From positions 1 through 46,157 of the forward strand of contig JAFPVR010000052.1 in the NCBI GenBank assembly GCA_017395245.1: a stretch of DNA of 46,157 nucleotides, read 5' to 3'. Position 1 is the stretch's first letter. Every line of letters starts with the position of its first letter. The notes below the pieces were generated by a model. The model was not told where the DNA came from, ran no database searches, and saw only the letters and a program-made list of their open reading frames with translations. Of the stretch, positions 3,301-42,965 are shown piece by piece. A program made the position numbers and the translations under genes. Source of the stretch: Bacteroidales bacterium (GTDB lineage: Bacteria > Bacteroidota > Bacteroidia > Bacteroidales > WCHB1-69).

Positions 3301-4626
<1,326 letters not shown>

Positions 4627-4655
4627 GGCAGTAGGCAAAAGGCAGTAGGCAGTAG
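4627..4655 (+). repeat. 7-base spacer array (GGCAGTA type)
   Basis: Directly after the TGA stop of the response regulator come GGCAGTA, GGCAAAA, GGCAGTA, GGCAGTA: four phased 7-mers, three of which contain TAG. One of ten short arrays of about 7-base period in this window. Confidence 0.8.
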
Positions 4656-4704
4656 AGATGATTGTGTCGAAAATGCATTAATATATGAAACTTCTTCCTT
4701 GAAA

Positions 4705-4756
4705 GCCCTGTAAGGGCGTCGTATGTCAGCCTAGGGTGAGCGGAGCGAGCCCTAGG
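4705..4756. repeat. REP-like double hairpin
   Basis: Two inverted repeats in tandem: GCCCT-GTA-AGGGC (4705-4717) and CCTAGGG (4730-4736) with CCCTAGG (4750-4756). It lies between the response regulator and its kinase. No U-run follows, so it looks more like a repetitive extragenic palindrome than a terminator. The bases from 4757 to 4808 are a low-complexity tract of GATGACGA-like words running into the kinase start codon. Confidence 0.6.
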
Positions 4757-4808: not shown

Positions 4809-6029
4809 ATGATAACGATTATAATCATAGGAATAGTAATCGCCTGGGCCGCCACCGCGTGGCTCCTCCTCCGGCGCAACCGCCGCAACACCGGCCGCAT
4901 CAAGTTCCTGTCGGACGCGGTGGCGGGCGGCGACTTCAGCTTCACCTTCCCCGAAGGCGATTCCCGGCGCACCGACCGCGTGATGGCCGAGTCGTTGAAC
5001 CGCATCCGCGACATGCTCGCCCGCGCCCGACAGGAAACCATCGACAAGGAACGCTACTACGCCCAAATTCTTGACAACGTGCGCACCGGCGTCGTGGCCT
5101 TCGACGAACGGGGCTTCGTCACGCAGACCAACGAAATCGCCGCCACGCTCTTCGGACTGCCCGTGCTGACCCACATCCGTCAGCTCGACAGAGTGAGTCC
5201 GGGGCTGTCGGACACGCTACTCCTGTCGGCGGCTGGCGACACCCGCACGCTCACCCTCCACGATGGCGACAGCACCCGCCAGCTCTCCATCCAAGTCTCC
5301 CAAAGCCGCATCCGCGACCGAAACATCCGGATACTGTCTGTCAACGACATCCACAACGAACTGGACAACAAAGAGATAGAATCATGGGTATCGCTCACTC
5401 GCGTACTGACGCACGAAATCATGAATGCAGTCTGCCCCATTACCTCGATGAGCGAAAGTCTACGCGAATTAGTTCCCGACAAGGACTCCGAACTCTACAA
5501 GGGATTGGCGCTCATCCATGAATCGGGCCGCGGCATCGAGGGATTCGTGGAGTCATACCGGCAGTTCACCCACATTCCCACGCCTGCACCGACGCTGTTC
5601 TATGTCCGGGGATTGGTGGAACGAGCCGTGGCACTGGCGCGGAGCATATCGGAAAGTCCGAACATCGAGTTCCGTTGGGCGGTGGAGCCCGACGACATGT
5701 TGCTGCACGCCGACGAGAACCTCATCAGCCGCGTACTCAACAACCTGCTCAAGAACGCCGTGGAGGCGGTGGGCGAAGGAAACGACGGTTGGGTGGAAGT
5801 TCGCGCCCTCCTCAACGAACGCGAGGACGTGGTCGTGGAGGTCAGCGACAGCGGCGGGCCGATTCCGCCAGCCGTGGAGGAGCGCATCTTCATCCCGTTC
5901 TTCACCACCAAGGAGAGCGGCAACGGTGTCGGGCTGAGCATTTCGCGACAGATCATGCGGCTTTCCGGCGGCACGCTCACGCTGCGCACACGTCCGCACA
6001 CCACGTTTGTGATGACCTTTGGTCATTGA
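4809..6029 (+). CDS. PAS-containing sensor histidine kinase, partner of the regulator at 3301
   Basis: 406 residues. One N-terminal membrane helix (2-21, ITIIIIGIVIAWAATAWLLL) is followed by a basic stop-transfer, a linker helix, a PAS-like domain (about 85-180, beginning YYAQILDNVRTGVVAFDERG), a HisKA H-box with His202 in LTHEIMNAVCPI, and a HATPase_c domain with N-box NNLLKNAVEA (311-320), DSGGPIP and the G2 box ESGNGVGLS. There is almost no extracytoplasmic part, so the signal is probably sensed in the membrane or cytosol. The His box and gene order match the AtoS/ZraS-type partners of NtrC regulators. The spacer from the regulator is 182 bp of repeats. The TGA stop is itself part of a TTGACCT array. 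Confidence 0.92.
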   Translation: MITIIIIGIVIAWAATAWLLLRRNRRNTGRIKFLSDAVAGGDFSFTFPEGDSRRTDRVMAESLNRIRDMLARARQETIDKERYYAQILDNVRTGVVAFDERGFVTQTNEIAATLFGLPVLTHIRQLDRVSPGLSDTLLLSAAGDTRTLTLHDGDSTRQLSIQVSQSRIRDRNIRILSVNDIHNELDNKEIESWVSLTRVLTHEIMNAVCPITSMSESLRELVPDKDSELYKGLALIHESGRGIEGFVESYRQFTHIPTPAPTLFYVRGLVERAVALARSISESPNIEFRWAVEPDDMLLHADENLISRVLNNLLKNAVEAVGEGNDGWVEVRALLNEREDVVVEVSDSGGPIPPAVEERIFIPFFTTKESGNGVGLSISRQIMRLSGGTLTLRTRPHTTFVMTFGH

Positions 6030-6077
6030 CCTTTGACTTTGACCTTTAACTTTGACCTTTGACTTTGACTGTTGACC
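6026..6077 (+). repeat. TTGACCT/TTGACT spacer array overlapping a stop codon and a promoter
   Basis: Four consecutive 13-base units made of a 7-mer and a 6-mer (TTGACCT TTGACT). The first contains the TGA stop of the histidine kinase (6027-6029), and the last supplies the TTG of the -33 box of the next promoter. TGA or TAA recurs in nearly every unit. Confidence 0.85.
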
Positions 6078-6938: not shown

Positions 6939-6941
6939 TTT

Positions 6942-7011
6942 AAGTTTCAAGTTTCAGGTTTCAAGTTTCAGGTTGTAAGTCAACAAGGTTGAAGTTTGAA
7001 ACCTGAAACCA
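6942..7011 (+). repeat. AAGTTTC/AGGTTTC spacer array with inverted half
   Basis: Five phased 7-mers (AAGTTTC, AAGTTTC, AGGTTTC, AAGTTTC, AGGTTGT) from 6942, then a looser stretch ending GAAACCTGAAAC, the reverse complement of bases 6951-6962. The array begins four bases after the TAA of the SPFH gene. The minus strand has TGA in each unit. Confidence 0.75.
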
Positions 7012-18200: not shown

Positions 18201-21200
18201 GGGCAGCGAAACGGTGTATGTCTGTCAGGATGCCTTCCCGTATTCTTACGCCGGTCAGGACTACTCCGCAGCCGACACCTACGAGGTGATTCTCCCCACA
18301 GCCGGTTGCGACAGTATCGTGACACTGACCATCATCGAGGCTCCGCTGTTCCATTCTGAAGAGTCGGTGGAGACTTGCGAGAACGCCCTGCCCTATCTGT
18401 GGCATGGACAGTCGCTTACGGAGAACGGCCAGTACACCGACCAGCACCAGAGCATCTATGGCTGCGACAGCACCTACACGCTGAACTTGGTCATCTCCAA
18501 CGTGAAACGCTCCACCGATACGGTTGACATTTGCGAAGGGGCAAGCTACGAATGGCATAACCTGACGCTCAGCCAGTCAGGAGAATATTTGGACACTATC
18601 CAGTCGGCGGCCGGTTGCGACAGCATCTGCCAGCTTGTTCTGACGGTGCATCCCACCTACCAGATTGCCGACACGGTGACTACCTGCCAGTCGAACACGC
18701 CGTATTACTTTGCCGCTGCCGACACGTTATTGGATGTTTCCACCGCCGGCACTCAGACCGTCATCTTCAACCGCTCGTCCGTTCACGGTTGCGACAGCAT
18801 CACCATGCTGACGTTGGTGGTGAACCCGACCTACGAATATGCTGACCAAGCGGCGGTTTGCAACTACGACCTGCCCTACGAATGGCGTAACCGGATGCTG
18901 ACAGAGGCCAGCACCTATTATGACAGCCTGCAGACCGTGAACGGCTGCGACAGTGTCTATGTGCTGTCTCTGACCGTGAAACCCGCCTTTGTGTTCACCT
19001 CCGACCCCGTGGAAATCTGCCAAGGCGAAACCTACAGCTGGCGCGAACACACCATCACGGAGACTGGTCTTTACCGCGACAGCGTGATCAACGCCCAAGG
19101 CTGTTACGACATCTATGAAGTGAACGTGACCGTACACCCGACCTATCTGTTCACCGACACCGTCACGATTTGCGATGACGCGCTGCCGTATTCCTGGCGC
19201 AACCGCTCACTGACGGCCGCCGGCACCTACGATGTCAACTTCCAGACCGTCACCCTTTGCGACAGCATCTATCGCCTTGTCCTGGTGGTCAACCCGACCT
19301 ACAGCTTCAACGAGACGCTGACCCTCTGCGCCGACGAAACGCCCCATACCTGGCACGGCCAGAGCCTGACGGCCACGGGTGTCTATACCGACAGTCTGCA
19401 AACGGCGAACGGCTGCGACAGCGTTTATACGCTCACCCTGACGGTGAACCCGACCTACAACTTCAACGACACGATGACGTTCTGCGCCAACGAGACCCCG
19501 ATTCTCTGGCACGGACAATCCCTCTCGACCACGGGCATTTATACCGACAGTCTGCAGACTAACAGCGGCTGCGACAGCGTGTACACCTTGGCTTTGACGG
19601 TCAACCCGACTTACAACTTCAGCGAGACAGACAGCGTGTGCAGCTACGACCTGCCGTACACGTGGCGTGGTCAAGAGCTGACTGCCAGCGACGTCTATTA
19701 CGACAGCTTGCAGACGGCGAACGGCTGCGACAGCGTGTATGTCTTGAATTTGACCGTACACCAGTCACAGGTCTTCACCGACCCAATGATCGAGTTGTGC
19801 GACGGTGCAACGCAGACTTGGCGCGACCAGGTGATCAGCACCACAGGCGAGTACCGCGATACGGTGATGAACGCCACCGGCTGTTACGACATCTTTGTGG
19901 TGAACGCCCTCGTGCACCCGACCTACCACTTCTACGATACGATGACGGTGTGCCAGAGCGCGCTGCCGTATACGTGGGGCGGCCACACCTTCAACGCGGC
20001 GGAAACCTACACGCTGAACCTGCAAACGGCGAACGGATGCGACAGCATCCACGAATACACCCTGTTCGTCAACCCGACTTACAGCTTTAGCGAGACGTTG
20101 ACCCTCTGCGCCGACGAGACACCGTACACGTGGCACGGCCAGAGCCTGACGGCCACGGGCGTCTATACCGACAGTCTGCAGACCAACAGCGGCTGCGACA
20201 GCATCTATACGCTCACGCTGACGGTGAACCCGACCTACAGCTTCAACGAGACGATGACCCTCTGCGCCAACGAGACACCTATCCTCTGGCACGGACAAAG
20301 CCTGACGACCACGGGCATCTATACCGACAGTCTGCAGACCAACAGCGGCTGCGACAGCGTGTACACTTTGGTTTTGACGGTCAACCCGACTTACATCTTC
20401 AGCGAGACGGACAGCGTGTGCAGCTACGACCTGCCGTACACCTGGCGCACCCAAGAGCTGAATGCCAGCGGCGTCTATTACGACAGCCTGCAGGCGAAGA
20501 GCGGATGCGACAGCGTGTATGTGCTGACCTTGACCGTGAATCCGTCGCAGGTCTTCACCGACCCGATGATTGAGTTGTGCGACGGTGCAACGCAGACTTG
20601 GCACGGACAGGTAATCAGCGCCACGGGCGAGTACCGCGACACGGTGATGAATGCCACCGGCTGTTACGACATCTATGTGGTGAATGCCCTTGTGCACCCG
20701 ACCTACCACTTCTATGACACGATGACGGTGTGCCAGAGCGCGCTGCCGTACACGTGGGACGGCCACACCTTCACCGCTGCGGAAACCTACGTTTTGAACC
20801 TGCAGACGGTGAACGGCTGCGACAGCATCCACGAATACACCCTGTTCGTCAACCCGACCTACAGCTTCAGCGAGACGCTGGCCCTCTGCGCCGACGAGAC
20901 GCCGTACACCTGGCACGGCCAGAGCCTGACGGCCACGGGCATCTATACCGACAGTCTGCAGACGATGAACGGCTGCGACAGCATCTATACGCTGACGTTG
21001 ACCGTGAATCCGGTTTCCCACCAGCTTGACAGCGCGACCGTTTGCGGCAACGAACTGCCTTACGAGTGGCGCGGACAGCAGCTCAGCGTCGCCGGCCATT
21101 ACACGGATACGGTGCCGAACAGCTATGGTTGCTCAGACATCTATGAGCTGCAGCTGACCGTGAACGCCGTACCGCAAACGATGCTCTACGACACTGTCTG

Positions 21201-21991: not shown

Positions 21992-22040
21992 AATTGACTG
22001 GCGACCGGTGACCGGCGACTTAAGACTTGAGACTTAAGAC
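21992..22040 (+). repeat. NNNNGAC 7-base spacer array
   Basis: Seven perfectly phased 7-mers, all ending GAC: AATTGAC, TGGCGAC, CGGTGAC, CGGCGAC, TTAAGAC, TTGAGAC, TTAAGAC. It is sandwiched between two terminator hairpins after the adhesin. Confidence 0.85.
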
Positions 22041-22044
22041 TTTG

Positions 22045-23622: not shown

Positions 23623-23698
23623 CTACAGATATGCATCCCCTAACGGGGATGGTGGTAGGTGTCGAAACAAACCTGCGAAACATAACGTGCCAACGCCG

Positions 23699-23852
23699 GT
23701 GCAGGAATTCACAAACGCCGGTGCAGGAATTCGCAAACGCCCGTGCAGGAATTCGCAAACGCCCGTGCAGGAATTCGCAAACGCCCGTGCAGGAATTCGC
23801 AAACGCCCGTGCAGGAATGAGTCAACGTCTGTACGGGCATAGGCCGACGCCA
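23699..23852. repeat. 22-bp tandem repeat array
   Basis: Units of 22 bp beginning GTGCAGGAATTC at 23699, 23721, 23743, 23765 and 23787, four of them identical (GTGCAGGAATTCGCAAACGCCC at 23721-23808 with the first differing at two bases), then two degenerate units at 23809 and 23831. It lies in the 335-bp spacer between the FGE remnant and the DUF3078 gene. There are no spacers between units, so it is not a CRISPR. Confidence 0.9.
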
Positions 23853-23879
23853 GTACACACAGGCATGAACCAACAAACA

Positions 23880-23905
23880 GTCAAAGTCAAAGTCAAAGGT
23901 CAAAG
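23880..23905 (+). repeat. GTCAAA spacer array
   Basis: GTCAAA, GTCAAA, GTCAAAG, GTCAAAG: the same TTTGAC word as at 6026, 29484 and 40374 but inverted, upstream of the DUF3078 promoter. Confidence 0.7.
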
Positions 23906-23933
23906 TACCCTTCTCCGTCTCGCGAAAATTCTG

Positions 23934-27658: not shown

Positions 27659-29487
27659 AAAAGTTACTGATCATTACGTTTCTCGCGACCCTCGCGTTTG
27701 TCGGCTGCCAATCCAAAGCGCATGTGCAGCCCGAACCGCACTGGTTCAAGCATTATTCCCACTATCACGAGAAAGATTACATCCAATTTATTGAGAACCA
27801 AATCCATAGCGAGACCGACTCTTCCTTGTCCGCCGCAATGGTCCGGGACTTCTACCGCGACCGGCACTTCCATCCCTTTTGGACGCAGAACGGGCTGCAG
27901 GAGATTCTGACCGACTCGCTGCTTGCCACTTTCGACAATGCCTTGCGCCTACATGGCATCCCCAACGAATATTTCGGGTTGGACAGCATCCGCCACACCA
28001 TCGCGCAACTCGTTGAAAACCAGGTTCCCAACAACGATTCGCTCTACCCGTACCTCTATCGCCTCGAACGGCAGCTCACCGACAGCTACGTGCGCTATGT
28101 CTGTGCCCTCGCCTACGGGGCTACCGACCCCAAGGCCGTAAACGGCAGCAAATGGTACTACGCCACGCTTAAGCCCGACTCCTCGTTCCTCCAAACCATG
28201 CTTGCGGAAATGCCCCGATTTGAGAAGACGATTTCCGGATTAGCGCCCCAGACAGCCGATTATCAATCCCTTCAAAAGGAATTGAAACGGCTGTACAGTT
28301 TGCCGGATTCGACGCAGACCGAGATTCCTGACTTCCGCCTGCGCAAAGACGGTCATAGCGCGAACCTTCCCAAGCTATGCCAACGGCTTAACCAAATCGG
28401 ATTTCCCGTCAGCATTGGCAACACCCTGAACGATACGTTGTTGCAAGCCCTCAATAACTTCCGCCGAATCAACGGCATCCCCGAAAGCGACTCCCTCGAC
28501 GGCGAGACCATTGAAAAGCTGAACCGGCCGCTGCAGTACTATAAGGATGCCGTGGCCGCCAACCTCGAACGCCTGCGCTGGCAGAAGAAGCATCAGAAAT
28601 CCGACGACACCCTTCACATTGCCGTCAACATTCCCGACTACACGCTCTGTGTGGTGCAGAAGGACGAGGTGGTGATGCGCGAACGCATCTGCTGCGGCAA
28701 GACCCAGAATCCCCAAAACGACCCGGCACGTCACAAAGACGGCCTCATCGCCCCGTTCAAGGCCGAAACTCCACTGTTATACAGCCAGATACGCACGCTG
28801 GTACTCAATCCTGAGTGGAACATTCCCTACGACATTATCAAGAACGAATACTACCCGAAACTCGTGAAGAGCAACACGGCGGTGGTAAACCGCGAGCATC
28901 TCTACATCCGCGACAGCCGCACGGGACGCTACGTCAAGCCCGACTCCATCAACTGGAGCATGGTGAACCGCAACAACATCCCCTACCGGTTGCACCAAAC
29001 CTCGGGACGCTACAACGCGCTGGGCCGCTTCAAGTTCGTGTTTGCCAACTCCGAATCGGTCTATCTGCACGACACCAACAACAAGGGGGCGTTCAAGCGG
29101 CGCAAACGGGCGCTGAGCCACGGCTGCGTGCGTGTGCAAAACCCCGACAGCGTGGCCGAGTGGGTCTATGCCGTCAACGGCTTCGACACCAACTACATCG
29201 AACAACTGCATATCCTCCTCGGCGCGGAACCCACCACCGAGAAGGGCGAGAAATTCGTGGAGAAAAAGCACGAGCAGGATTCCATCTATTACGAAAAGCT
29301 GAGCGACTGGGACAAACAGTTCTACCGCGAGCTGCGCCCCACGAGCGTCACCCTGCGCAAGCCCATCCCGCTCTTCATCGAGTACTACACCTGCTTCGTC
29401 GCCGCAGACGGCACCGTGCAATACCGCGAGGATGTTTACTACAAGGACGGGAATATTCTGTTTTTGATGAAACACCCGGATTTTTGA
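27655..29487 (+). CDS. L,D-transpeptidase lipoprotein (YcbB/YkuD type)
   Basis: 610 residues starting MKKLLIITFLATLAFVGCQSK, with a lipobox (AFVGC), so it is probably a lipoprotein. An N-terminal helical region (40-250) and a peptidoglycan-binding-like stretch (LRKDGHSANLPKLCQRLNQIGFPVSIG, about 225-290) precede the YkuD catalytic domain, whose signature ALSHGCVRVQNP holds His489 and Cys491. This is the large YcbB layout found in Bacteroidetes: it makes 3-3 cross-links in peptidoglycan or attaches proteins to it. The start is the ATG inside the ATGA overlap with the CPBP gene. The TGA stop lies in the first unit of a TTGACCG array. Confidence 0.92.
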   Translation: MKKLLIITFLATLAFVGCQSKAHVQPEPHWFKHYSHYHEKDYIQFIENQIHSETDSSLSAAMVRDFYRDRHFHPFWTQNGLQEILTDSLLATFDNALRLHGIPNEYFGLDSIRHTIAQLVENQVPNNDSLYPYLYRLERQLTDSYVRYVCALAYGATDPKAVNGSKWYYATLKPDSSFLQTMLAEMPRFEKTISGLAPQTADYQSLQKELKRLYSLPDSTQTEIPDFRLRKDGHSANLPKLCQRLNQIGFPVSIGNTLNDTLLQALNNFRRINGIPESDSLDGETIEKLNRPLQYYKDAVAANLERLRWQKKHQKSDDTLHIAVNIPDYTLCVVQKDEVVMRERICCGKTQNPQNDPARHKDGLIAPFKAETPLLYSQIRTLVLNPEWNIPYDIIKNEYYPKLVKSNTAVVNREHLYIRDSRTGRYVKPDSINWSMVNRNNIPYRLHQTSGRYNALGRFKFVFANSESVYLHDTNNKGAFKRRKRALSHGCVRVQNPDSVAEWVYAVNGFDTNYIEQLHILLGAEPTTEKGEKFVEKKHEQDSIYYEKLSDWDKQFYRELRPTSVTLRKPIPLFIEYYTCFVAADGTVQYREDVYYKDGNILFLMKHPDF

Positions 29488-29575
29488 CCGTTGACCTTTG
29501 ACCGTTGACTTTGACCTTTGACTGATGACTGTTGACACTGTGAACCCTAAACTCTAAACTCTTAACTCTTAACCA
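29484..29575 (+). repeat. Spacer array filling the gap from stop to next start
   Basis: TTGACCG, TTGACCT, TTGACCG, TTGACT, TTGACCT, TTGACT, then GATGACT, GTTGACA, and then a second series CCCTAAA, CTCTAAA, CTCTTAA, CTCTTAA. It begins within the L,D-transpeptidase stop (29485-29487) and ends two bases before the next ATG (29578). TGA or TAA occurs in nearly every unit. Confidence 0.85.
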
Positions 29576-33012: not shown

Positions 33013-33040
33013 GTAGAGACGCGCCACGGCACGTCTCTAC
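33013..33040. repeat. GTAGAGACG palindrome, copy 4
   Basis: GTAGAGACG (33013-33021) and CGTCTCTAC (33032-33040). The centre CGCCACGGCA continues the pairing as GCC/GGC after one mismatch. It runs directly into the ACTCTAA array. Confidence 0.8.
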
Positions 33041-33068
33041 ACTCTAAACTCTCAACTCTAAACTCTCA
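33041..33068 (-). repeat. 7-base spacer array starting in a stop codon
   Basis: Four exact 7-mers; on the minus strand TGAGAGT, TTAGAGT, TGAGAGT, TTAGAGT. The first contains the TGA stop of the BT_3928-type gene (33066-33068). Every unit has TGA or TAG in the sense direction. Confidence 0.85.
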
Positions 33069-34241
33069 CTCCACCGGTTTCGCGGGGATATCGCGCCACG
33101 CCCACTTGTCCATCACCACGCCCTTGTTGAGGCGCATGACACCGGGGTTGGAACGCATGGCGTCGCGCACCATGAAGGGACCGGTGATCGGGTTGATGGG
33201 GTTGTAGTAAATCGGGAACTCAATGCCGTATTCCTTGACAAACGCGGCAATTTCCTCCTCCGACGAGTTGGTGATGCCCACGAAGTCAATGCCGTTCTCC
33301 TCACAAGCTTTCGCCAGAGGTAACACTTTTTGCATACCCTTGGCATTGGATTCGCTCAAATCATGGACATACAGCACATAGACATCGCGGTCGTTCGTCG
33401 TGGAGAAATAATCGGGTGCGTGGTCGGCACCGTTCTCGTCGAGCATATTGAAGCCGTCAATTTTGGCTTTCACCGCCTCCTTGATGACTTTGTCTTCGCG
33501 GGAGACGTACTCGTTCTTCTCGTAGAAAGCCTCGTCCTGATCCATCAGTTCGTCCTGCGTGAGGGTGATTTCCTCGCCGGTAGCCGTGTTCTTGTAGACA
33601 AACACCACGTCCTTCTGGGCGGGCTGCGCCACGAAGACGGAGACATCCTTGCCCTTGTTCCAGTCGCTCTTGCCGATGAACGGCAGATGGCGGATAACGT
33701 AAAGCTGGAAGATGACGGCAATGAGGGCGAAGATGGCCACGGCAATCCACTGCCCGAGCACCGTCAGGCGGCAGTCGCTGATTCTCTTGCGGTTGAAGAA
33801 GACAATGAGCGTGGGGATGATAAAGACCACATTTTTCAGGAAGGTGGCCTTGTTGGACATCTCAATCACATCGCCGAAGCAGCCGCAATCCTTCACCACA
33901 CCGAAGTAGTGGATGCCGTTCACTTCCATATACTCCGCGATGGCAAGCCACAGCGTGAGGAAGAAGAAGAACGTCATGAAGATGAGGTAGCCCCATGCAG
34001 CCAACTGCACGCGCACACGGAAGAGCAGCATGCAGCCCAGCACAAATTCGCAGGTGATGGCCACCACCGCCGCGAAGAGCGCCAACGGGTGCAGAAAGCC
34101 CATGTGGAAGGAGACGAAATAATCGTTCACCGTCACCCCGAAGCCCACCGGGTCAATGGCCTTCGTGAAACTGGAGAAGAGGAACAGGCACCCCAAAAGG
34201 ATGCGGATGATTTTTAACCAAACGGGTTCTTTTTTACTCAT
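33066..34241 (-). CDS. BT_3928-type DoxX/MauE-like membrane protein
   Basis: 391 residues from ATG 34241 (a GTG three codons earlier is possible). Four membrane helices with DoxX/MauE-type sequence come first (ILLGCLFLFSSFTKAIDPVGFG, FVLGCMLLFRVRVQLAAWGYLIFMTFFFFLTLW) and the cysteine motif KDCGCFGD after them. A further helix near 165-190 follows, then a soluble C-terminal domain that looks thioredoxin-like (LPLAKACEENGIDFVGITNSSEEEIAAFVKEYGIEFPIYYN) but lacks a CXXC. MauE/DoxX relatives take part in membrane redox or disulphide chemistry; the exact role in Bacteroidetes is unknown. It follows DUF1599 with a 7-mer array between, a neighbourhood I recall as common in this phylum. Confidence 0.85.
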   Translation of the reverse strand: MSKKEPVWLKIIRILLGCLFLFSSFTKAIDPVGFGVTVNDYFVSFHMGFLHPLALFAAVVAITCEFVLGCMLLFRVRVQLAAWGYLIFMTFFFFLTLWLAIAEYMEVNGIHYFGVVKDCGCFGDVIEMSNKATFLKNVVFIIPTLIVFFNRKRISDCRLTVLGQWIAVAIFALIAVIFQLYVIRHLPFIGKSDWNKGKDVSVFVAQPAQKDVVFVYKNTATGEEITLTQDELMDQDEAFYEKNEYVSREDKVIKEAVKAKIDGFNMLDENGADHAPDYFSTTNDRDVYVLYVHDLSESNAKGMQKVLPLAKACEENGIDFVGITNSSEEEIAAFVKEYGIEFPIYYNPINPITGPFMVRDAMRSNPGVMRLNKGVVMDKWAWRDIPAKPVE

Positions 34242-34246
34242 ATTAT

Positions 34247-34302
34247 TCACAAATCACTAATCACAAATCACAAATCACTAATCACTAATCACTAATCAAA
34301 AC
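34247..34302 (-). repeat. TTAGTGA/TTTGTGA spacer array
   Basis: Eight phased 7-mers (on the plus strand TCACAAA, TCACTAA, TCACAAA, TCACAAA, TCACTAA x3, TCAAAAC) filling almost the whole gap between the DUF1599 stop (34305) and the next start (34241). Each unit carries TGA, often also TAG, in the sense direction. Confidence 0.9.
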
Positions 34303-34304
34303 AA

Positions 34305-34862
34305 CTACTCTTCTTTTTCAAGGACCAAACGGATGAGGCAGAACATGGAGTAGTTAATCATATCGTAATAGTTGGCGTCGAGGCCCTCGGAGACGAGGGT
34401 GTTGCCGTGGTGGTCCTCAATGGACTTGGTGCGGAAAATCTTCATCAGGATGATGTCGGTGATGGAACTGATGCGCATACGACGCCAGGCCTCGTCGTAG
34501 TCGTGGTTCTTGTCCATCATCAGGTTCTTGGCGGCGTGGATGTAGTGGTCGTAGCGTTCCAGGAGCTTGTCGGTCGGCATAACGGTCTCCTCGGGCGAGT
34601 TGGCAACCCCGACCTCCAACTGGATAAGCGCCATCACGCAGTAGTTGACAATGCCGACGAACTCGGGTACAATGCCCTCGGCCACCCGCGCATCACCCTT
34701 TTCCTGGATGCTACGGATGCGGTTGGCCTTGATGTAAATCTGGTCGGTGAGCGACGGCAGCCGCAAGATGCGCCACGCCGTGCCGTAATCGATCGCCTTG
34801 TTGCGGAAAACCTCCTGGCAATAGGCGATTATCTTCTCATATTGTTCCGATGTGTTTGCCAT
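34305..34862 (-). CDS. DUF1599 protein (nucleotide-modification-associated type)
   Basis: 185 residues built from two similar halves. Each carries an RNKAIDYGTAWRILR / DKNHDYDEAWRRMR-type motif followed by IYIKANRIRSIQEKG / ILMKIFRTKSIEDHHG and a helical end with D/E-x-x-YD. This internal duplication is the mark of DUF1599. The family has been linked by others to nucleotide modification, but its function in Bacteroidetes housekeeping loci is not established. It overlaps the preceding gingipain-like gene by one base (TAATG), so translation is probably coupled to that much longer gene. Confidence 0.87.
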   Translation of the reverse strand: MANTSEQYEKIIAYCQEVFRNKAIDYGTAWRILRLPSLTDQIYIKANRIRSIQEKGDARVAEGIVPEFVGIVNYCVMALIQLEVGVANSPEETVMPTDKLLERYDHYIHAAKNLMMDKNHDYDEAWRRMRISSITDIILMKIFRTKSIEDHHGNTLVSEGLDANYYDMINYSMFCLIRLVLEKEE

Positions 34863-37800
34863 TATCGTTTGATAATCTTCAAGTTCTGGGTTTTCTGGTT
34901 GTCGAACGTGAGCTGCAACAGGTAGAATCCGGCATTCAAGTCATTGACACCCAATTCAAAACGGTTGGCTCCGTTCAAGTTCACCGTGCGCACCATGCGA
35001 CCGTTCATGTCGAAAAGAATGGCCTTCGTCACCGCAGTCTCGCTCTCCACCACCACGCGGTCGTTGGCGGGGTTCGGGAAAACGGTGGCGCGGGTCTGCA
35101 CGTAAACCTGAACGCCCACGCCGGAAGAATCGGTAACATCCTCAATCACAAGGATTCCGGCGCACGGCAGTATAATGTCATCCACCCACGCACAGTCGCT
35201 GCCGGATGCCTGGGATTGGTCCTTCTCGTAGGAAAAGCGAATGGTGTGGCTGCCTGCGGGAATTTCGGTGGAGAAAAGAGTCCACGGCACTTCGCCGTCA
35301 GCTTTGTCCACTTCCTGTCCATCTACATGCAGGTAGAATTTGTCGTAGTTGGCCTCGGAACTGACCTTCCGATAGTAGGACAGCAGGGCGGCGGAGGGAA
35401 TGTTCACGCTGATTGTCATCCTGGATTTCGCATCGCTCGGCAGGCTCTGCGCGGAACGGGCACAATAGTCGCCCGAATACGCCCCCGACGAGGTCACAAT
35501 CCACGGGTAGTTATTCATCGTGAAGCCGAAGTCGCCAAAATCGCCGCTCTCAAAGGAGACGAAATCGGCACCGACCATGATGTAAAGCGTGTCCACACGG
35601 TTAACACCGTCGTAGGAAATATGGTAATAAAGCGGCACAATTGACTTGTTCGGCACCGTGTCGGCAATCTGGACGGTAAAGCTGGTGTACATGGTCTCGT
35701 AAACATCAAGCCCGCTGATACTGGTGGCACCGGTCAGCACCTGCACACCGGAGTAATTGCAGGTCAGATCCACAGCACCCGTGTTCACGCCAACGTGACC
35801 CGCATTCAGATTGTTGAAAACGAAAGTCACCTCATCGCCGGCATTATAGTTTGTCACAGCAGAGCTGTTGACGGTGGTAGTATATTCGGTAACTTGCACC
35901 TTGGGCAGCAGCACCCGCACGGCCACGCTGCGCTCGATGATGGTGTCCTGCCAGTGGATGCGGAGCGTAAACGGCAGGTTCACATAATCTTCCGACTGCG
36001 GCATCACGAAGGAGAACGCATTGGCGCGGCTCTCCGTAGCGTCCACACTAATACCGCCCACAAAGACGGAATCCTGCAGCATCGCCACTCCATCGTCGGA
36101 GGTGAGCGTGGCATAGACTTGCGTGGCGGCGCTGACACCCACATTCGACAGCGAAATGTTGATATGGACGGTGGATCCTTGCGTGAACACGGTATTTTCA
36201 GCCACTTCCACAGCGGTCGGAACCACAAACGCGCCGTTGGGCGTTATCACCTGAACCGCCTGGAAATAGGGGATGTAGTTCTGTGCCTGGGCCGTAAACT
36301 CGCAGTCACCAGGCTCGATACCGGCGACATCGAGCGTGGCCGCACCGTTCGCATCGGCGAAAGCAGCCGCAATGAGGTTCCCGTTCCGTGTGAGCGCAAC
36401 GTACGCATACGGCGCGACGGTCACCGCGTAAGTCGTGTTATTGGTAGTAATCACACTGCCGGCCGTCACATCCATCGTGGAGGGAAGGCCCAAATAGGCC
36501 CGCACAGACGGGTCGCCGAAGCAGTGGTAAATCTCCCAATAATACAGTTTCATGCTGGAGGAAGAGGACTGCACGGTCATGTTGCCGGCAGTCATAATGC
36601 CGCCGATGGTGGAGACCCAATTGGTGTAGGGCTCGCCGTGCGTGTGGAACACCTTGTCGTACATGCCGAGATGGGAGGCATCGTAGGTGGGGGTGGCGGT
36701 GATGTTCGAGCGCACGCCTACAGCCCAGTAGAAGTCCTCGCCCCAATAGGTGTTGTTGGAGGCGCCGATATAGCCCATCGCTCCTTTGTTCTCGGCACGA
36801 AGCAGCGCCTCGCCGAAACATTCGGACGTCTTGAAGTTGCCCGACTGGCAGCAGTTGCCAATCATCAAACCGTACTTGCCGTTATTCTGCAGCTGGGCCA
36901 CATGTGAAACGGTGAACGACGGATCCGCCCAGCTGGTCTCGCTACCGTGGGCGGTGTAGTTAACCCAACCGGCACCGGCGCTCACTTCCGCACGGATCTG
37001 CGCCGCCTGCGAACTGCAGTTGTAATGATGCGCCATCACATTGGTATAGCGCGGATTGTTGACATTCATGTAGTTGTCCTCAATATAGAAAATCTGTCCG
37101 TCGGCGTGGATAGGACCATAATGGCTGTCTGTGCCGGCAATGAGCACAGCGTTGCCGAGATACGACGGGTCAGGCATCGTGTACTGCTCATACATGAGGA
37201 TTTTCACAATCTGGTTCGAGAGCTGGGTGTTGCTGGTGGCGGACATACGGCCGTAGTAGAGGTCGGGAAGGTTGTCATCGCCGGAGAGCGTGGCATAGTA
37301 GAGGTCCGTGATGTGGTCGTTGTCGGTGGTGCCGGTAAAGGCGGGAAGCTGCGCGCGGTCGCCAATCAGCAGCAGGAACGACGGCGCGGGATCGGCGGGC
37401 GTGGCCGCGTCATAGCGACTTTGGATAAAGTCCTTGATGGAGGTCGTGGTCGTGCCCACGCTCGCATCGCTGGTGTAGGCCACCTCCACGAGATAGCCCA
37501 AACGACGCTTCCAACTCACGAAAGCGGCCAAATCCTCATTGGTCTCGAACATGCTGTTCGCAATAATGAGGTACTTGATCGGCGCATCGGAATACTCATT
37601 TCGAGTCTCCTGCATCTTATTGATCACCAAGTCTCTATCTAATGAGAAGAGCGGGGAGGTATACTTCTGCAACGCAACGGTGGCCCCCATGTCGGTGTTT
37701 ACAAACGTGAACTGCAAATCAATGTGGTTGTAAACCCGGATTTTACCCGTGACGGGATTGTACTGCACCGGCGACACATATACGTTGGCCAGCGCCGCAT

Positions 37801-38260
37801 TGCGCTTCACACCAGACTTTTCCACACGCACCAGCGGCAGCGAATAGAACGCATTGGTAGCGTAAATCGCCTGGTTGTAAGCAAATTGCGGATTCGGGTC
37901 ATTCTTCGCCACAGAAGGCTGCGACGGAAAAATCAAATGGGTGACGCCCAGATCGGCCGCGTCATAGTCACTGTATTGCGCACTGATGACGGTGGCCACC
38001 ACGGAATCACAGACGGGAATCTGCAGCATCCGGCTGAGCACCGGCAACTGCGGAGCACCGGGATCATTGGAAGGGGCATATCCCTCCAAGGAAATCACAG
38101 AAAAATCACCCTCGGGCACATGGAGGTTTTCCACAGAAATTGCGCCATTATCGATAGAAAACGACACGTTTTGATAAGAATTCTGTGTAAATTGAAGATT
38201 CTGCGCCCAAACAAGCGGGCAGAGGGCCATCACAGCCACCCATAACAAGATTTTTTTCAT
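34862..38260 (-). CDS. Gingipain-like C25 cysteine protease with T9SS sorting domain
   Basis: 1,132 residues. Signal peptide 1-19, propeptide-like region to about 215, then the C25 catalytic domain (about 226-600): His438 in NYTAHGSETSW and Cys471 in GNCCQSGNF, spaced 33 residues as in gingipain RgpB. It continues through Ig-like segments (600-880), a MAM/cleaved-adhesin-like domain (about 905-1040, FESGDFGDFGFTMNNYPW... CAWVDDIILP) and a type A T9SS C-terminal domain (FPNPANDRVVVE... NLKIIKR). It would be secreted through T9SS and attached to the surface, degrading host or dietary proteins. Substrate preference for Arg or Lys cannot be read. It has its own promoter (38297) and leads a unit with DUF1599 and the BT_3928-type gene. 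Confidence 0.95.
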   Translation of the reverse strand: MKKILLWVAVMALCPLVWAQNLQFTQNSYQNVSFSIDNGAISVENLHVPEGDFSVISLEGYAPSNDPGAPQLPVLSRMLQIPVCDSVVATVISAQYSDYDAADLGVTHLIFPSQPSVAKNDPNPQFAYNQAIYATNAFYSLPLVRVEKSGVKRNAALANVYVSPVQYNPVTGKIRVYNHIDLQFTFVNTDMGATVALQKYTSPLFSLDRDLVINKMQETRNEYSDAPIKYLIIANSMFETNEDLAAFVSWKRRLGYLVEVAYTSDASVGTTTTSIKDFIQSRYDAATPADPAPSFLLLIGDRAQLPAFTGTTDNDHITDLYYATLSGDDNLPDLYYGRMSATSNTQLSNQIVKILMYEQYTMPDPSYLGNAVLIAGTDSHYGPIHADGQIFYIEDNYMNVNNPRYTNVMAHHYNCSSQAAQIRAEVSAGAGWVNYTAHGSETSWADPSFTVSHVAQLQNNGKYGLMIGNCCQSGNFKTSECFGEALLRAENKGAMGYIGASNNTYWGEDFYWAVGVRSNITATPTYDASHLGMYDKVFHTHGEPYTNWVSTIGGIMTAGNMTVQSSSSSMKLYYWEIYHCFGDPSVRAYLGLPSTMDVTAGSVITTNNTTYAVTVAPYAYVALTRNGNLIAAAFADANGAATLDVAGIEPGDCEFTAQAQNYIPYFQAVQVITPNGAFVVPTAVEVAENTVFTQGSTVHINISLSNVGVSAATQVYATLTSDDGVAMLQDSVFVGGISVDATESRANAFSFVMPQSEDYVNLPFTLRIHWQDTIIERSVAVRVLLPKVQVTEYTTTVNSSAVTNYNAGDEVTFVFNNLNAGHVGVNTGAVDLTCNYSGVQVLTGATSISGLDVYETMYTSFTVQIADTVPNKSIVPLYYHISYDGVNRVDTLYIMVGADFVSFESGDFGDFGFTMNNYPWIVTSSGAYSGDYCARSAQSLPSDAKSRMTISVNIPSAALLSYYRKVSSEANYDKFYLHVDGQEVDKADGEVPWTLFSTEIPAGSHTIRFSYEKDQSQASGSDCAWVDDIILPCAGILVIEDVTDSSGVGVQVYVQTRATVFPNPANDRVVVESETAVTKAILFDMNGRMVRTVNLNGANRFELGVNDLNAGFYLLQLTFDNQKTQNLKIIKR

Positions 38261-38450: not shown

Positions 38451-40373
38451 TCATCGAGCCGCATCGTACTGTTCGAAAACCGAATTCCGGCTGACGAACT
38501 CCGGCACGAATGCTTTCATCTTCTTCACCATGGCCGGAATGTCCACCTTTTCAGAGAGATCCTCCATTACCTGGATACTCTTCAACGCCTCGGGATAGTC
38601 ATACTCGCGGACCTTGGCCACAAAAATGCGGTCGTGGGAGGTCGCCGTGGTGTTCTCGCTGTTGGAGAGCACCTCTTCGTAAAGCTTTTCGCCCGGACGA
38701 AGACCCGTGTATTCGATTTTAATATCAACGCCTACTCGCAGACCCGCCAAGGAGACCATTCGCCTGGCCAAATCGTCGATCTTCACAGGTTCGCCCATAT
38801 CAAAGACGAAAATCTGCGTCCCCGTGCTGAACGTCGCGGCCTCCATCACCAGTCGGCAGGCTTCCGGGATGGTCATGAAGAAACGGGTGATGTCGGGGTG
38901 CGTCACCGTCAAAGGCCCGCCCTTCTCAATCTGTTCGCGGAAGCGCGGGATCACGGAACCGTTAGAACCCAGCACATTACCGAAACGTGTAGTCACAAAG
39001 GTGGTTTTGCCCTTGACCTCGCCACGCTCAATGGCCAGGCCTAACGACTGCACGTAAATCTCCGCAATGCGCTTGGTGCAACCCATCACGTTGGTAGGGT
39101 TCACCGCCTTGTCGGTGGAAATCATCACCATCTTTTCGACATCGTACTCAATACATTTGTCGGCTACGTTATGCGACCCAAACACGTTCACACGCATAGC
39201 CTCACAGGGGTTCTCCTCCATCAGCGGCACATGCTTGTAAGCAGCAGCATGGAAAACAATCTGCGGATGGTGCTCGCGGAAGGCGAAATCGAGACGCGGG
39301 GGCTGGCGAACATCGCCGATAATGGGCACGAACGACAACTCCGGGAATTTCTCCTCCAACTCCAGACGGATATTGTGCATTGGGGTCTCGGCATTGTCGA
39401 ACAACACCAGTTTCTTAACGCCGAAGCCCGCTATCTGTCGACAAAGCTCCGACCCGATGGAGCCGGCCGCACCTGTCACCATCACCACCTTGCCGAGGAA
39501 ATTCTCCATCACCGCATCCATGGAAATGGTGATTTCGTTACGGCCAAGCAAATCCTCGATTTTCAGACGACGGATACTGTAACGGAGATCTTCGTTGTTG
39601 AGTTCGTTAATCTGGGGTATAATGAGCGGTCGCAACTGCAGTGTAACACAGTCCTTTAGCAGACCGTCGCGCTCACGACGGGCATCGGCCTCAGTGGTAA
39701 AAAGGATGGCGTCAATACCGTACTCGCTGACAATACGGCCCAGCTGCTCGCTGTCGTCGTAAGTGAACACCGGCAGGTTGGCAATCAACAAATTAGGCCG
39801 CTGCGGTTTCTTTGTGAGGAAACCGATGATGTTGTAGTGCGGGGAGTTCTGGAAACGCACCACCGTGGCCGTCGATTTGTCGGAGACGCCATACACGAGC
39901 ACCCGCTGCGTCCGCCGGTCCTCGCGACGCTTGGTCAGGTAAAGCTGGTAAACCGCTACCATGACGATGCGCACAAACACCAGCAGGAATAGCGTGAAAA
40001 GGAAGTCGGTGAACAATGCAATGAACAAACCATAATACATTGTACGGTAATAGATTAGCATCACCAAGATCATCAACAGCACCTTGAGCAGCGACTCTTT
40101 GACAAAGCAGAGCATGTCTTTGGCAGAGAGATGCCGGATCACGAGCTTGTGCCCCTTGAAAATGAGCAATGCAATTACCGTCGCGACGAGCGCTGTGGGT
40201 AGCCACAGCAGCGCGAACGACCCTGACTGGTAGAACGACCCGCGCACGAAACCAAGCGCGAGCAAGGCAAGCAGCGACGATATCTCCGAAAGGATACAAT
40301 CTATGGCGAAAATCACCTTCGAATCGATGAATTCCGACAGCTTGCGCACGATTTTGATTGACAATTTTGACAT
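38451..40373 (-). CDS. Membrane-bound UDP-sugar 4,6-dehydratase/epimerase (CapD/PglF type)
   Basis: 640 residues. Four membrane helices (about 20-145), a CoA-binding-like domain (155-260, QRVLVYGVSDKSTATV), then the SDR domain with GxxGxxG at 301-307 (GAAGSIG). The active site is STDKAVNPTNVMGCTK, where Met430 takes the place of the usual SDR Tyr and Lys434 remains. This replacement is typical of the CapD/FlaA1/PglF dehydratases, which convert UDP-GlcNAc to a 4-keto-6-deoxy sugar for surface glycans. Last gene of the upxY-led operon, followed by a strong terminator. The spacer before it is a TTGAC array. Confidence 0.93.
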   Translation of the reverse strand: MSKLSIKIVRKLSEFIDSKVIFAIDCILSEISSLLALLALGFVRGSFYQSGSFALLWLPTALVATVIALLIFKGHKLVIRHLSAKDMLCFVKESLLKVLLMILVMLIYYRTMYYGLFIALFTDFLFTLFLLVFVRIVMVAVYQLYLTKRREDRRTQRVLVYGVSDKSTATVVRFQNSPHYNIIGFLTKKPQRPNLLIANLPVFTYDDSEQLGRIVSEYGIDAILFTTEADARRERDGLLKDCVTLQLRPLIIPQINELNNEDLRYSIRRLKIEDLLGRNEITISMDAVMENFLGKVVMVTGAAGSIGSELCRQIAGFGVKKLVLFDNAETPMHNIRLELEEKFPELSFVPIIGDVRQPPRLDFAFREHHPQIVFHAAAYKHVPLMEENPCEAMRVNVFGSHNVADKCIEYDVEKMVMISTDKAVNPTNVMGCTKRIAEIYVQSLGLAIERGEVKGKTTFVTTRFGNVLGSNGSVIPRFREQIEKGGPLTVTHPDITRFFMTIPEACRLVMEAATFSTGTQIFVFDMGEPVKIDDLARRMVSLAGLRVGVDIKIEYTGLRPGEKLYEEVLSNSENTTATSHDRIFVAKVREYDYPEALKSIQVMEDLSEKVDIPAMVKKMKAFVPEFVSRNSVFEQYDAAR

Positions 40374-40414
40374 ATTGACTTTGACTTTTGACTTTGACCT
40401 TTGACTTTGACCTA
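40374..40414 (-). repeat. TTTGAC spacer array filling stop-to-start gap
   Basis: On the plus strand TTGACT, TTGACT, TTTGACT, TTGACCT, TTGACT, TTGACCT. It runs from the TAG of the flippase gene (40412-40414) to the ATG of the CapD-like gene (40373). Sense direction is GTCAAA, so its TGA words are on the antisense strand. Confidence 0.85.
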
Positions 40415-41632
40415 TTGTTCAACACAATGGCGTGACGCAACAAAATAGGACATCGCGAATCCGGCGTTGAGGATGACCACGGCCACCGCCGCGCCGATAG
40501 CGCCGAATAAAAACGTCAGCACAGTGAAAAGCACCACTCCTAACAGTGTGACAATCAAGGTGATATTACGCAGAAGTTTCTCCTGTCCAACGAGCAGCAA
40601 ATAGTTTACCCCGTAAGCGCTGCTAATGCCAATAAAGAAAACCGAGACCGCCAGTATCCGAAGCAACGTGATGGCGGGAAGGAACTCTTCGGAATAGAGC
40701 AACCTGATGAGGAACGGGGCCAGCACAAAGAGCAGAACCGCCAACAAAAGTGAGAAAACGAAATTGATGCGACGGTACCCCGTGTGCTTGTCCAGATGAC
40801 GCGACAAAAACGGGAAAAAGGTCCGGTTCAACACGTCTACACTGTGTTTGCCGACATTGTGCAACCGACCTGCGGCATCATACAAACCGGCAGCGGCGGA
40901 CCCGGAAACAATCCCTAACAGTATGTTCGGCAGATTGACACAGAAACTCATACAAACTTGATTGACAAACAAATCCTTGCCCGTCTTGAAGCTGCCCAGA
41001 ATCTTCTCCCACGACGGAATATGCAGCCGACACTTGTATTTCATCGTCATCATGCTGATGGAATAGACCGCCGCCAGCACAAAACCGAACAGGTTGAAAA
41101 GCGGATAGAGGATGTAATCTTCGCGTTCTTTAATGAAAAGAAATATTAAAGCGAGGTAAACCACCCTCGAAATCACATTCACGATGGTGATGTGCTCCAT
41201 CTTCTCCATCCCTTGGAAAAACCACTCGGAAACGTGCATCGAGAAGAAGGCCGTGGCGACGGAGATGAGGATCAGCAACCAGATTTCCCGGAACTGCGGA
41301 ACGATCAGCACGATACAGGACAACAGCGTGAATGCCAGTATGTAGAGGATAATGCGGGCGCAAAGGATGGTGGAAACGATGTCGGAAACCTTTTCCATGT
41401 CCTCACGGTTGCGGGCGATGTCCCGGGCGCCGATGAAGTCGAAGCTGAATTTGACGAACGTCTGGAAAATCAGCGCGATAGCATACGCGACGGCAATCTC
41501 GCCGAAATGCTCCACCCCGATAATGGGCGTGACATACGGCAGCACGATGAACGGGATCAGATACCGCATCGCCTGCAACACCGCCAGCGCCGAAAAATTC
41601 TTCGTTAGCGTGCGGGCGTTGCTGTCTTTCAT
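40412..41632 (-). CDS. Wzx-type polysaccharide flippase
   Basis: 406 residues, very hydrophobic, with 12 or so membrane helices and the RfbX/MATE-like pattern: N-terminal NFSALAVLQAMRYLIPFIVLPYVTPIIGVEHFGEIAVAYA, then FSFDFIGARDIARNRED after helix 2 and GLYDAAGRLHNVGKHSVDVLNRTFFPFLSR in the middle. The family flips lipid-linked oligosaccharide units across the inner membrane in Wzx/Wzy capsule or O-antigen pathways. It lies between ugd and the CapD-like gene, which supply sugar nucleotides. No Wzy polymerase or glycosyltransferase is encoded in this operon. Confidence 0.88.
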   Translation of the reverse strand: MKDSNARTLTKNFSALAVLQAMRYLIPFIVLPYVTPIIGVEHFGEIAVAYAIALIFQTFVKFSFDFIGARDIARNREDMEKVSDIVSTILCARIILYILAFTLLSCIVLIVPQFREIWLLILISVATAFFSMHVSEWFFQGMEKMEHITIVNVISRVVYLALIFLFIKEREDYILYPLFNLFGFVLAAVYSISMMTMKYKCRLHIPSWEKILGSFKTGKDLFVNQVCMSFCVNLPNILLGIVSGSAAAGLYDAAGRLHNVGKHSVDVLNRTFFPFLSRHLDKHTGYRRINFVFSLLLAVLLFVLAPFLIRLLYSEEFLPAITLLRILAVSVFFIGISSAYGVNYLLLVGQEKLLRNITLIVTLLGVVLFTVLTFLFGAIGAAVAVVILNAGFAMSYFVASRHCVEQ

Positions 41633-41665
41633 CGTTTTATCAGCTGATTTGCCGGAGAAAAATGC

Positions 41666-42937
41666 CTAATCACGCTTGAAAATATCCCGCGTATAGACCT
41701 TTTCGACCACGTCGTCGAGGCAGGCGTCGTAGCGGTTTGCGATGATGGCCTGCGACTGGCGCTTGAACTCGTCGAGGTCGTTGACCACCTTCGATCCGAA
41801 GAAAGTGGTACCGTCGGGAAGCGTGGGCTCGTAGATGATAACTCTCGCGCCCTTGGCCTTCACGCGCTTCATCACGCCCTGGATGCTGCTCTGACGGAAG
41901 TTGTCGCTGTTCGACTTCATCGTGAGGCGATAGACGCCAATCACGCACTCTTTCTCGTGGGCGGCATCGTAGTCGCCACGGTTGTAGTAGTCGTAGTAGC
42001 CAGCTTTCTTCAGCACCTGGTCGGCGATGAAGTCCTTGCGCGTACGGTTGCTCTCCACAATGGCCGACATCATGTTCTGCGGCACATCGGCGTAGTTGGC
42101 CAACAGCTGCTTGGTGTCCTTCGGCAGACAGTAGCCGCCGTAACCAAAACTCGGGTTGTTGTAGTGCGTGCCGATACGCGGGTCAAGACAGACGCCGTTG
42201 ATAATACTCTGGGTGTCAAGACCTTTCATCTCGGCGTAAGTATCCAGCTCGTTGAAATAGCTGACACGCAACGCGAGGTAGGTGTTGGCGAAGAGCTTCA
42301 CAGCCTCGGCCTCGGTGCTGCCCATGAAGAGCACGGGCACGTCCTCCTTGATGGCGCCCTCCTTGATGACGGCCGCGAAGGTGTGCGCCGCCTTCTCCAA
42401 CGCGGGCTCGCCGTAGCCCACAATGATGCGGCTCGGGTAGAGGTTGTCGTACAGTGCCTTGCTCTCGCGGAGGAACTCCGGCGCGAAGATAATGTTCGGC
42501 GCCACGACATTGAAGGTGCCGTCCGCCAGCCGTTCGCGGTAGCTGAACTTCTCACGCACGCTCTGCGTGTAGCCCACGGGGATGGTGCTCTTGATGACCA
42601 TCGTGGCGTTGGGGTTGACCTGGAGGACCTTGTTAATCACATCCTCCACTGCGCTGGTGTCGAAGAAGTTCTTGGTGCTGTCGTAGTTCGTCGGGGCGGC
42701 GATGACCACGAAGTCGGCGTCGCGATAGCCCGCCTCCCAGTCGAGAGTGGCGTGGAGGTCCAACGGCTTGTGCGCCAGATAGTCCTCGATGTAATCGTCC
42801 TGGATGGGCGACTTCTTGTTGTTGACCATCTCCACGCGTTCGGGCACAATGTCCACGGCGGTGACGGTGTGATGCTGCGCGAGCAGCGTTGCGATACTCA
42901 GACCGACATAGCCGGTCCCTGCTACGGAAATTTTCAT
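41666..42937 (-). CDS. ugd: UDP-glucose 6-dehydrogenase
   Basis: 423 residues. The NAD-binding Rossmann start is [19 protein letters not shown] (GxGxxG, 7-12). The central helix and substrate loop contain KSTIPVGYT and [10 protein letters not shown]. The catalytic cysteine motif is [15 protein letters not shown] with Cys270, Lys273 and Asp274. A full C-terminal domain follows ([11 protein letters not shown]...). The enzyme oxidises UDP-glucose to UDP-glucuronate in two NAD-dependent steps, for acidic surface polysaccharide. Second gene after upxY, 23 bases apart, with that gap built of 7-base units. Confidence 0.93.
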
Positions 42938-42965
42938 ATTAAACGGTTATGGGTTATCGGTTAAA
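42938..42965 (-). repeat. 7-base spacer array between upxY and ugd
   Basis: On the minus strand TTTAACC, GATAACC, CATAACC, GTTTAAT, followed directly by the ugd ATG. The upxY stop TAA (42961-42963) lies in the first unit, and every unit contains TAA. The whole stop-to-start gap is array. Confidence 0.85.

Follow-up and report, generated by a model that had tools for sequence, protein, structure and literature searches.

Tandem arrays with a preferred seven-nucleotide step in the spacers of a Bacteroidales genome: shared placement, changing words

The spacers of the Bacteroidales genome studied here carry tandem arrays with a preferred unit of 7 nt (heptad arrays), which are real and genome-wide. 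They exceed chance expectation, lie close to stop codons more often than random placement allows, follow a strand polarity and persist in some of the same gaps across species. Their words differ between sites and between genomes, and at one locus three species form a series of one, two and four units. The finding uncouples the rule of placement from both the word and quadruplexes: arrays of many words, none with three-G quadruplex capacity, show the placement, polarity and inverted pairing reported for Xanthomonas and Nostoc, so the factor in common must lie in the heptad step or at the gene edge.

Heptad arrays in the window and across the genome

The window, i.e., the whole 46,157-nt stretch of DNA that was analysed, is contig C31 of G000, a 3.78-Mb draft genome in 129 contigs with 97.6% completeness and 3.25% contamination. 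By one protein, DUF1599, the closest named relatives of G000 are uncultured Bacteroidales, most of them sampled from the rumen. Genes were called by our own codon-score script, and start codons are therefore uncertain. Spacers were scanned for tandem repeats with periods of 3-20 in two G000 samples, one of 528 kb (score at least 14; 307 spacers, 409 CDS) and one of 884.5 kb (score at least 12; 528 spacers). Array sites in other genomes were assessed partly by eye. The following arrays were located in the window:

4626..4655, + strand: GGCAGTA-type array, 4.3 copies, immediately 3' of the stop that ends the gene for the sigma-54 response regulator (3301-4626)
6013..6077, + strand: mixed 6/7 array of TTTGACC/TTTGACTT (13-nt composite), starting in the last histidine kinase codons and including the stop (at 6029)
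6942..6974, + strand: AAGTTTC array, 4.7 copies, 3' of the SPFH/Band 7 gene in a convergent spacer
21996..22042, + strand: GACCGGC and then GACTTAA-type array in a convergent spacer
23879..23906, - strand: mixed 6/7 array of AGTCAA(A); the next gene has an uncertain start, and the gene caller places the site inside the CDS
29483..29536, + strand: TTGACC(N) array including the stop codon of an L,D-transpeptidase-type gene (ends at 29487)
29543..29573, + strand: AACTCTA array, 4.4 copies, on the start side of the 90-nt spacer that also holds the 29483..29536 array
33035..33066, - strand: CTCTAAA array, GAGTTTA on the coding strand, immediately 3' of the stop of a minus-strand gene (33066-34241)
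34247..34298, - strand: TCACTAA array, 7.4 copies, 93% matches, covering most of the 63 nt that separate the DUF1599 gene from the MauE/DoxX-type gene
40366..40413, - strand: mixed 6/7 array of TTTGACC/TTTGAC, filling the 38-nt gap (40374-40411) between the flippase-type and Polysacc_synt_2 genes
42944..42963, - strand: array of CGGTTAT, 2.9 imperfect units with a TRF score of 33, lying in the 23 nt that separate the NusG-type gene from the UDP-glucose dehydrogenase-type gene

An earlier note on this DNA had named ten heptad sites, and period-7 or mixed 6/7 repeats are present near all of them, although the one at 42938 is weak and the one at 23880 lies in a CDS of uncertain start. It had also described arrays that make up the entire gap from stop to start codon. 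This is correct for 40374, where the array (40375-40411) occupies the 38-nt gap; the gaps at 34247 (63 nt) and 29484 (90 nt, two arrays) are nearly filled, and the site at 42938 is weak. The words were said to differ at each site, which they do not: TTGAC-type words recur at 6013, 29484 and 40366 and on the other strand at 23879, CTCTAAA-type words are found at both 29543 and 33035, and three successive AGACTTR units (AGACTTR x3) have 314 overlapping matches in G000.

The AAGTTTC array at 6942..6974 has a reverse-complement partner in its own spacer, and the AACTCTA array at 29543..29573 is C-richer on the coding strand. Spacers orthologous to the 4626..4655 site carry arrays built on other words, and short repeats resembling the CGGTTAT array of the NusG-type gap are present in two relatives.

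Several other features of the window deserve mention. A GAGACG...CGTCTC palindrome at 33015-33040 adjoins the CTCTAAA array, and other spacers have similar palindromes. A 22-nt tandem repeat (5.8 copies, 98% matches, 23692-23818) is located just 5' of the DUF3078 gene, and a 4207-residue ORF (9295-21918) contains internal 156-nt repeats (11.2 copies, 62% matches). The DUF1599 gene is adjoined by a Peptidase_C25-domain gene with a Por secretion tail (34862-38260, minus strand). The only known RNA families in the window are a tRNA and an Acido-Lenti-1 RNA Rfam match on the minus strand of the regulator-histidine kinase spacer (4704-4756; 38.7 bits, gathering score 37). Stretches of the form CTTCCTT...GCAGCC...GGGGCAA, resembling the region of this match, recur in many spacers of the genus.

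In the 528-kb sample, arrays were found in 35 of the 307 spacers, with period 7 in 20 cases, 14 in 14, 11 in five, 13 in three and 15 in one; no array had any other period within 3-20, period 8 included. Ten dinucleotide-preserving shuffles of these spacers gave no arrays, and among the 409 CDS seven had arrays, two of them with period 7. With the lower threshold of the 884.5-kb sample, 103 heptad-type arrays were found in 85 of the 528 spacers (period 7: 62, 14: 31, 13: 5, 20: 4, 6: 1), besides five non-heptad arrays of period 11 and one each of periods 9, 12 and 15; no array of period 8 occurred. Shuffling gave heptad-type arrays in two spacers in total over ten rounds (mean 0.2).

The genome-wide excess of lag 7 over lags 5, 6 and 8 that the earlier note had led us to look for is present in G000, with shuffles near zero. 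Autocorrelation in the 445 spacers of at least 40 nt gave z = 21.8, 18.2 and 18.1 at lags 7, 14 and 21, compared with -1.4, 7.9 and 10.1 at lags 5, 6 and 8; lags 2 and 3 are high too (z = 16.9 and 12.3).

Placement, strand and words

The earlier note had tied the arrays to spacers between co-directional genes. No such preference was registered in the 884.5-kb sample, where arrays occur in 61/379 co-directional, 15/75 convergent and 9/74 divergent spacers (p = 0.43). Within spacers of co-directional genes, the start of 30 out of 74 arrays lies at most 7 nt from the upstream stop, where random placement gives 9.6 (sd 2.3), and 14 of 74 end at most 7 nt from the start codon (expected 9.5, sd 2.3). 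The whole stop codon lies in phase inside the array in nine of the 47 arrays located at most 10 nt from a stop; in some others, the first unit takes the last bases of the stop.

On the coding strand, arrays near stops are mostly G-richer (34, with 11 C-richer) and those near starts mostly C-richer (23, with 3 G-richer; p = 2.5e-7). With all spacers included and one entry per word, 22 of 24 testable words on the stop (left) side are G-richer and 18 of 19 on the start (right) side are C-richer (p = 5e-9). This polarity is also significant in two further sets, with p = 1e-4 for loci of named relatives and p = 0.0018 for sampled genomes of the genus; as loci L042-L066 and the genus genomes are partly the same (the coordinates of L042 are those of G009:C20, and L057 overlaps L161), these replicates are not fully independent. 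In other Bacteroidota (L067-L121) polarity was not significant (p = 0.28); period 7 leads there with 20 arrays, followed by period 8 with 11 and period 14 with eight.

Local composition can be ruled out as the full cause of polarity, since G/C skew after stops is absent from 211 array-free co-directional spacers, which show a mild skew before starts. In the 27 start-side arrays the NTG density is 0.029 per nt for the coding strand and 0.086 for its complement; start-codon avoidance was not found in stop-side arrays (0.066 and 0.052).

The 93 arrays of period 7 or 14 in the G000 sample have 42 consensus words, which rules out one dispersed repeat. Of 410 pairs of neighbouring units, 390 differ by at most two substitutions, and in the array of L170 near 12904-12963 the word shifts stepwise along its length. 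In a word-neighbour test, 0.93 were linked, compared with 0.68 (sd 0.08) in shuffles, the highest of 300 shuffles reaching 0.95; this is only suggestive of the words of different arrays being mutational neighbours. Four units is the rounded copy number of 34 of the 93 arrays, a count to be read with a detection threshold that works against imperfect three-unit arrays. None of the 93 arrays has three-G quadruplex capacity, so G-quadruplexes are ruled out as a general cause; two-G capacity was found in 12.

The same gaps in related species

G000 and G013 share 54 syntenic gene pairs, 43 of which have a comparable spacer. When periods of 6-8, 12-16 and 20 were counted, arrays were present in both genomes in six of these spacers, in G000 only in four, in G013 only in two and in neither in 31 (Fisher p = 8e-4). 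As the arrays lie on opposite sides of the gap in some of the six, this comparison points to shared array-prone gaps and not always to a shared position.

A shared position is more evident at three loci: sigma-54 regulator-histidine kinase, ftsI-murE and DUF1599-MauE. At the first, a called array is found at the stop of the regulator in nine of the 13 loci with a spacer, with the words AGTTAGC, AGTGATC, GGCAGTA and AGTGAAC; of the other four, three have short versions recognisable by eye and one has none. The spacers of L184, L185 and L190 also contain long period 8/16 arrays on CGATGATN, which are located directly before the histidine kinase start codon and adjoin the heptad array at the stop.

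Before the murE start, called arrays, mostly of the AACC type, occur in 14 of 17 closer loci and two of 13 more distant ones, and several unexpanded relatives have one ATTAACC or ATAACC at the array position. The DUF1599-MauE gap has a called array in 13 of 30 loci, whose units measure 6, 7, 8 or 9 nt; unit length thus varies within the genus. In the 60-kb sample of G004, 8-nt arrays outnumber 7-nt arrays. Some spacers retain arrays across species while both word and unit length shift.

The gap between infC and rpmI was recovered in all 30 loci, and in 26 of them it is 42-49 nt long and lacks an array. Gaps of 54 nt in G016, 61 nt in G012 and 75 nt in G000 equal a conserved 47-nt leader plus one, two and four units, respectively, the units being GCAAAAG or GCAATAG placed immediately 3' of the TAG stop. 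The G019 gap is 74 nt long, of unrelated sequence and without an array. Changes of unit number in orthologous spacers, proposed as a check in the earlier note, were therefore observed here as exact 7-nt steps in three species. Together with the dominance of lag 7 and the 42 words, these steps support its central idea, that spacers are made time and again by a route which favours a 7-nt unit, as opposed to one dispersed repeat.

A nearly identical-looking divergent spacer between two sigma-factor-like genes was noticed in G000 (L181:12216-12542) and G013 (L263), 327 and 329 nt long. The flanking proteins are 79-87% identical and the spacer carries inverted AGACTTR arrays. An Rfam search of L181 gave no match above the gathering score.

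Origin of the arrays and known heptad repeats

The origin we favour, with moderate confidence, is tandem slippage that is seeded locally and prefers steps of 7 nt, with mutation and homogenisation acting afterwards. The seed would be 7 nt of sequence at the edge of a gene, in many cases sharing the final bases of the stop or sitting in the leader before a start; this stretch would be duplicated, and the duplicated unit would then grow or shrink in 7-nt steps via slippage or unequal exchange. Point mutations in single units would be spread by further duplication, letting the word drift while the array stays in the spacer. Arrays would be lost from coding DNA and retained in untranslated gaps, and transcript selection against NTG start codons ahead of the true one would be part of the cause of polarity. 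We infer that slippage is the process, that arrays generally originate by the seed step and that transcript selection plays a role; several observations suggest local slippage: the period spectrum, the infC-rpmI steps, the single units at ftsI-murE, the related words at the sigma-54 regulator, the L170 array, the similarity of adjacent units and the NTG depletion.

Other observations speak against this account. Local seeding would not predict a single word dominating many sites of one genome and being rare in a relative. A preference for 7 rather than 5 or 6 does not follow from generic slippage, and local composition does not account for polarity. Stop-side arrays show no start-codon avoidance, the G019 infC-rpmI gap has no array and the 1-2-4 series is one locus. 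Loss of mismatch repair was considered as a cause and rejected on the basis of MutS1, which scores above the family cut-off in 37 of the 40 genus genomes, the array-rich G000 and G019 included, so the loss is not needed for arrays; no match over the cut-off was found in G023, G040 and G044, and the match in G050 is in two pieces.

The arrays may instead be selected transcript elements (3'-end signals or leader elements) read by an RNA- or DNA-binding protein for which array geometry and strand outweigh the word. We consider this less likely, though it would account for persistence in the same gap across species whose flanking proteins are 80-90% identical, for a polarity that holds across many words and recurs in two more sets of the genus, and for the frequent array starts next to stops. 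Words and unit lengths that vary at one site are harder to reconcile with such a reader, as are the 31 of 43 orthologous gaps that are array-free in both genomes and the six with an array in only one.

Dominant heptad words vary between genomes. AGACTTR x3 has only 4 matches in G019, compared with the 314 in G000, whereas AGTTAGY x3 has 357 in G019, 295 in G050, 35 in G000 and 5 in G013; as these matches overlap, the sites are fewer than the counts. Any AGACTTR x3 match occurs in 19 of 40 genomes and any AGTTAGY x3 match in 21. The 47 AGACTTR places among the G000 matches listed represent about 20 separate sites. Such vocabularies could have been gained by each genome through spread of words between loci by recombination, template switching or a mobile element. 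We regard this as rather unlikely, because the words at orthologous sites resemble mutational neighbours and because the birth of the infC array added whole units and kept the remaining gap. The flanks of arrays carry array remnants, which confound a comparison for copied flanks or fixed element ends.

A bolder proposal, to which we give slightly less credence, is a dedicated or strongly biased process in the genus that would add heptads at gene edges, above all at stops, with the G-richer strand pointing outward from the gene on both sides regardless of the word. Species would rewrite its vocabulary, and a version with a frozen word would underlie the repeats of Xanthomonas, Nostoc and Beggiatoaceae.

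Hairpin-like array pairs are common, yet not the rule. A reverse-complement partner in the same spacer was found for 23 of 103 arrays, while ten re-pairings gave a mean of 8.1 and a maximum of 11; clear cases are L028 near 6849-6986 and L037 near 17582-17716. That arrays are in general hairpin arms, e.g., of terminators, with a G-richer 5' array pairing with a C-richer 3' array of the gap, is nevertheless improbable, as 80 of the 103 have no partner at the threshold used and lone gap-filling arrays are common.

An assembly artefact of metagenome bins is hardly credible: G000 is a contaminated draft with two full-length mutS1 matches and so may be mixed, but drafts of the genus that come from other sources show arrays in the same gaps, the arrays keep out of CDS and their orientation follows that of the genes, and finished-quality Butyricimonas records, outside the genus, also have period-7 arrays. 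The two mutS1 matches are located at C120:4545-7115 and C60:7176-9746, and the G000 bin may include DNA from a second related species.

Heptanucleotide units are also characteristic of the STRR repeats in intergenic DNA of heterocystous cyanobacteria. Our check of 200 kb of one Trichormus plasmid gave two period-7 arrays. In most genomes, heptanucleotides outnumber the other classes among long simple sequence repeats of 5-11-nt units, and polymerase slippage has been proposed for such repeats (Mrazek, 2007, as cited in excerpts of PMC4679880 and PMC4692102). Like this class, G000 has 7-nt tandem units well above chance, and unit number varies between relatives at infC-rpmI, one locus; unlike in the genus arrays, neither gene-edge polarity nor word turnover is described for it in those excerpts.

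A heptad process is not wholly new, as the earlier note had supposed, since heptads were already reported for Xanthomonas and Nostoc (excerpts of PMC4692102) and for Beggiatoaceae and Bacteroidetes (PMC4679880). Excerpts of the former paper describe intergenic GGGAATC heptamers in Xanthomonas and GGGGA(C/T)T in Nostoc, which overlap or lie near stops on the sense strand and near starts on the antisense strand (Rehm, 2015; PMC4692102). In the same excerpts, convergent inverted heptamer pairs are counted in Xanthomonas (70 cases in Xcc, 75 in Xac), 83% of the heptamers are in matching gene context between two species with varying length, and the authors emphasise quadruplex capacity and found no regulatory role (PMC4692102). 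As far as these excerpts go, the likeness is close: G000 arrays are G-richer on the sense strand near stops and the opposite near starts, and inverted pairs are present. The difference lies in the word, which in the excerpts is a single G-rich, quadruplex-capable one per group, against 42 words in 93 arrays without three-G quadruplexes in the G000 sample and a word that changes between species at one site in the genus. The Xanthomonas and Nostoc repeats had been read through their quadruplex capacity, and the genus arrays share the rules without three-G capacity. Many-word polarity, change of word and unit length in the same gap, genome-specific words and the infC-rpmI 1-2-4 series are added here to what is known of such repeats; no report of many-word heptad arrays in rumen Bacteroidales was found in the open-licence literature. 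As many species have arrays in some shared gaps, the origin of the 7-nt step, the way arrays are seeded at stops and the polarity are accessible to comparative and resequencing tests.

Direct TAACTGA repeats occur in Beggiatoaceae, some Cyanobacteria and five Bacteroidetes; the arrays adjoin start codons in forward orientation, with 169 sets in Maribeggiatoa and fewer in other genomes, and other heptamer repeats near them are mentioned for Gramella and a second Bacteroidetes species (PMC4679880). G000 heptad arrays are likewise found at gene edges, whereas the TAACTGA system has a single named word and, Maribeggiatoa apart, fewer sites per genome. The second species with nearby heptamers is presumably Aequorivita (A. 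sublithincola). TAACTGA is not among the 42 consensus words of the G000 arrays, and one array of G011 is of the TAACTGA word type.
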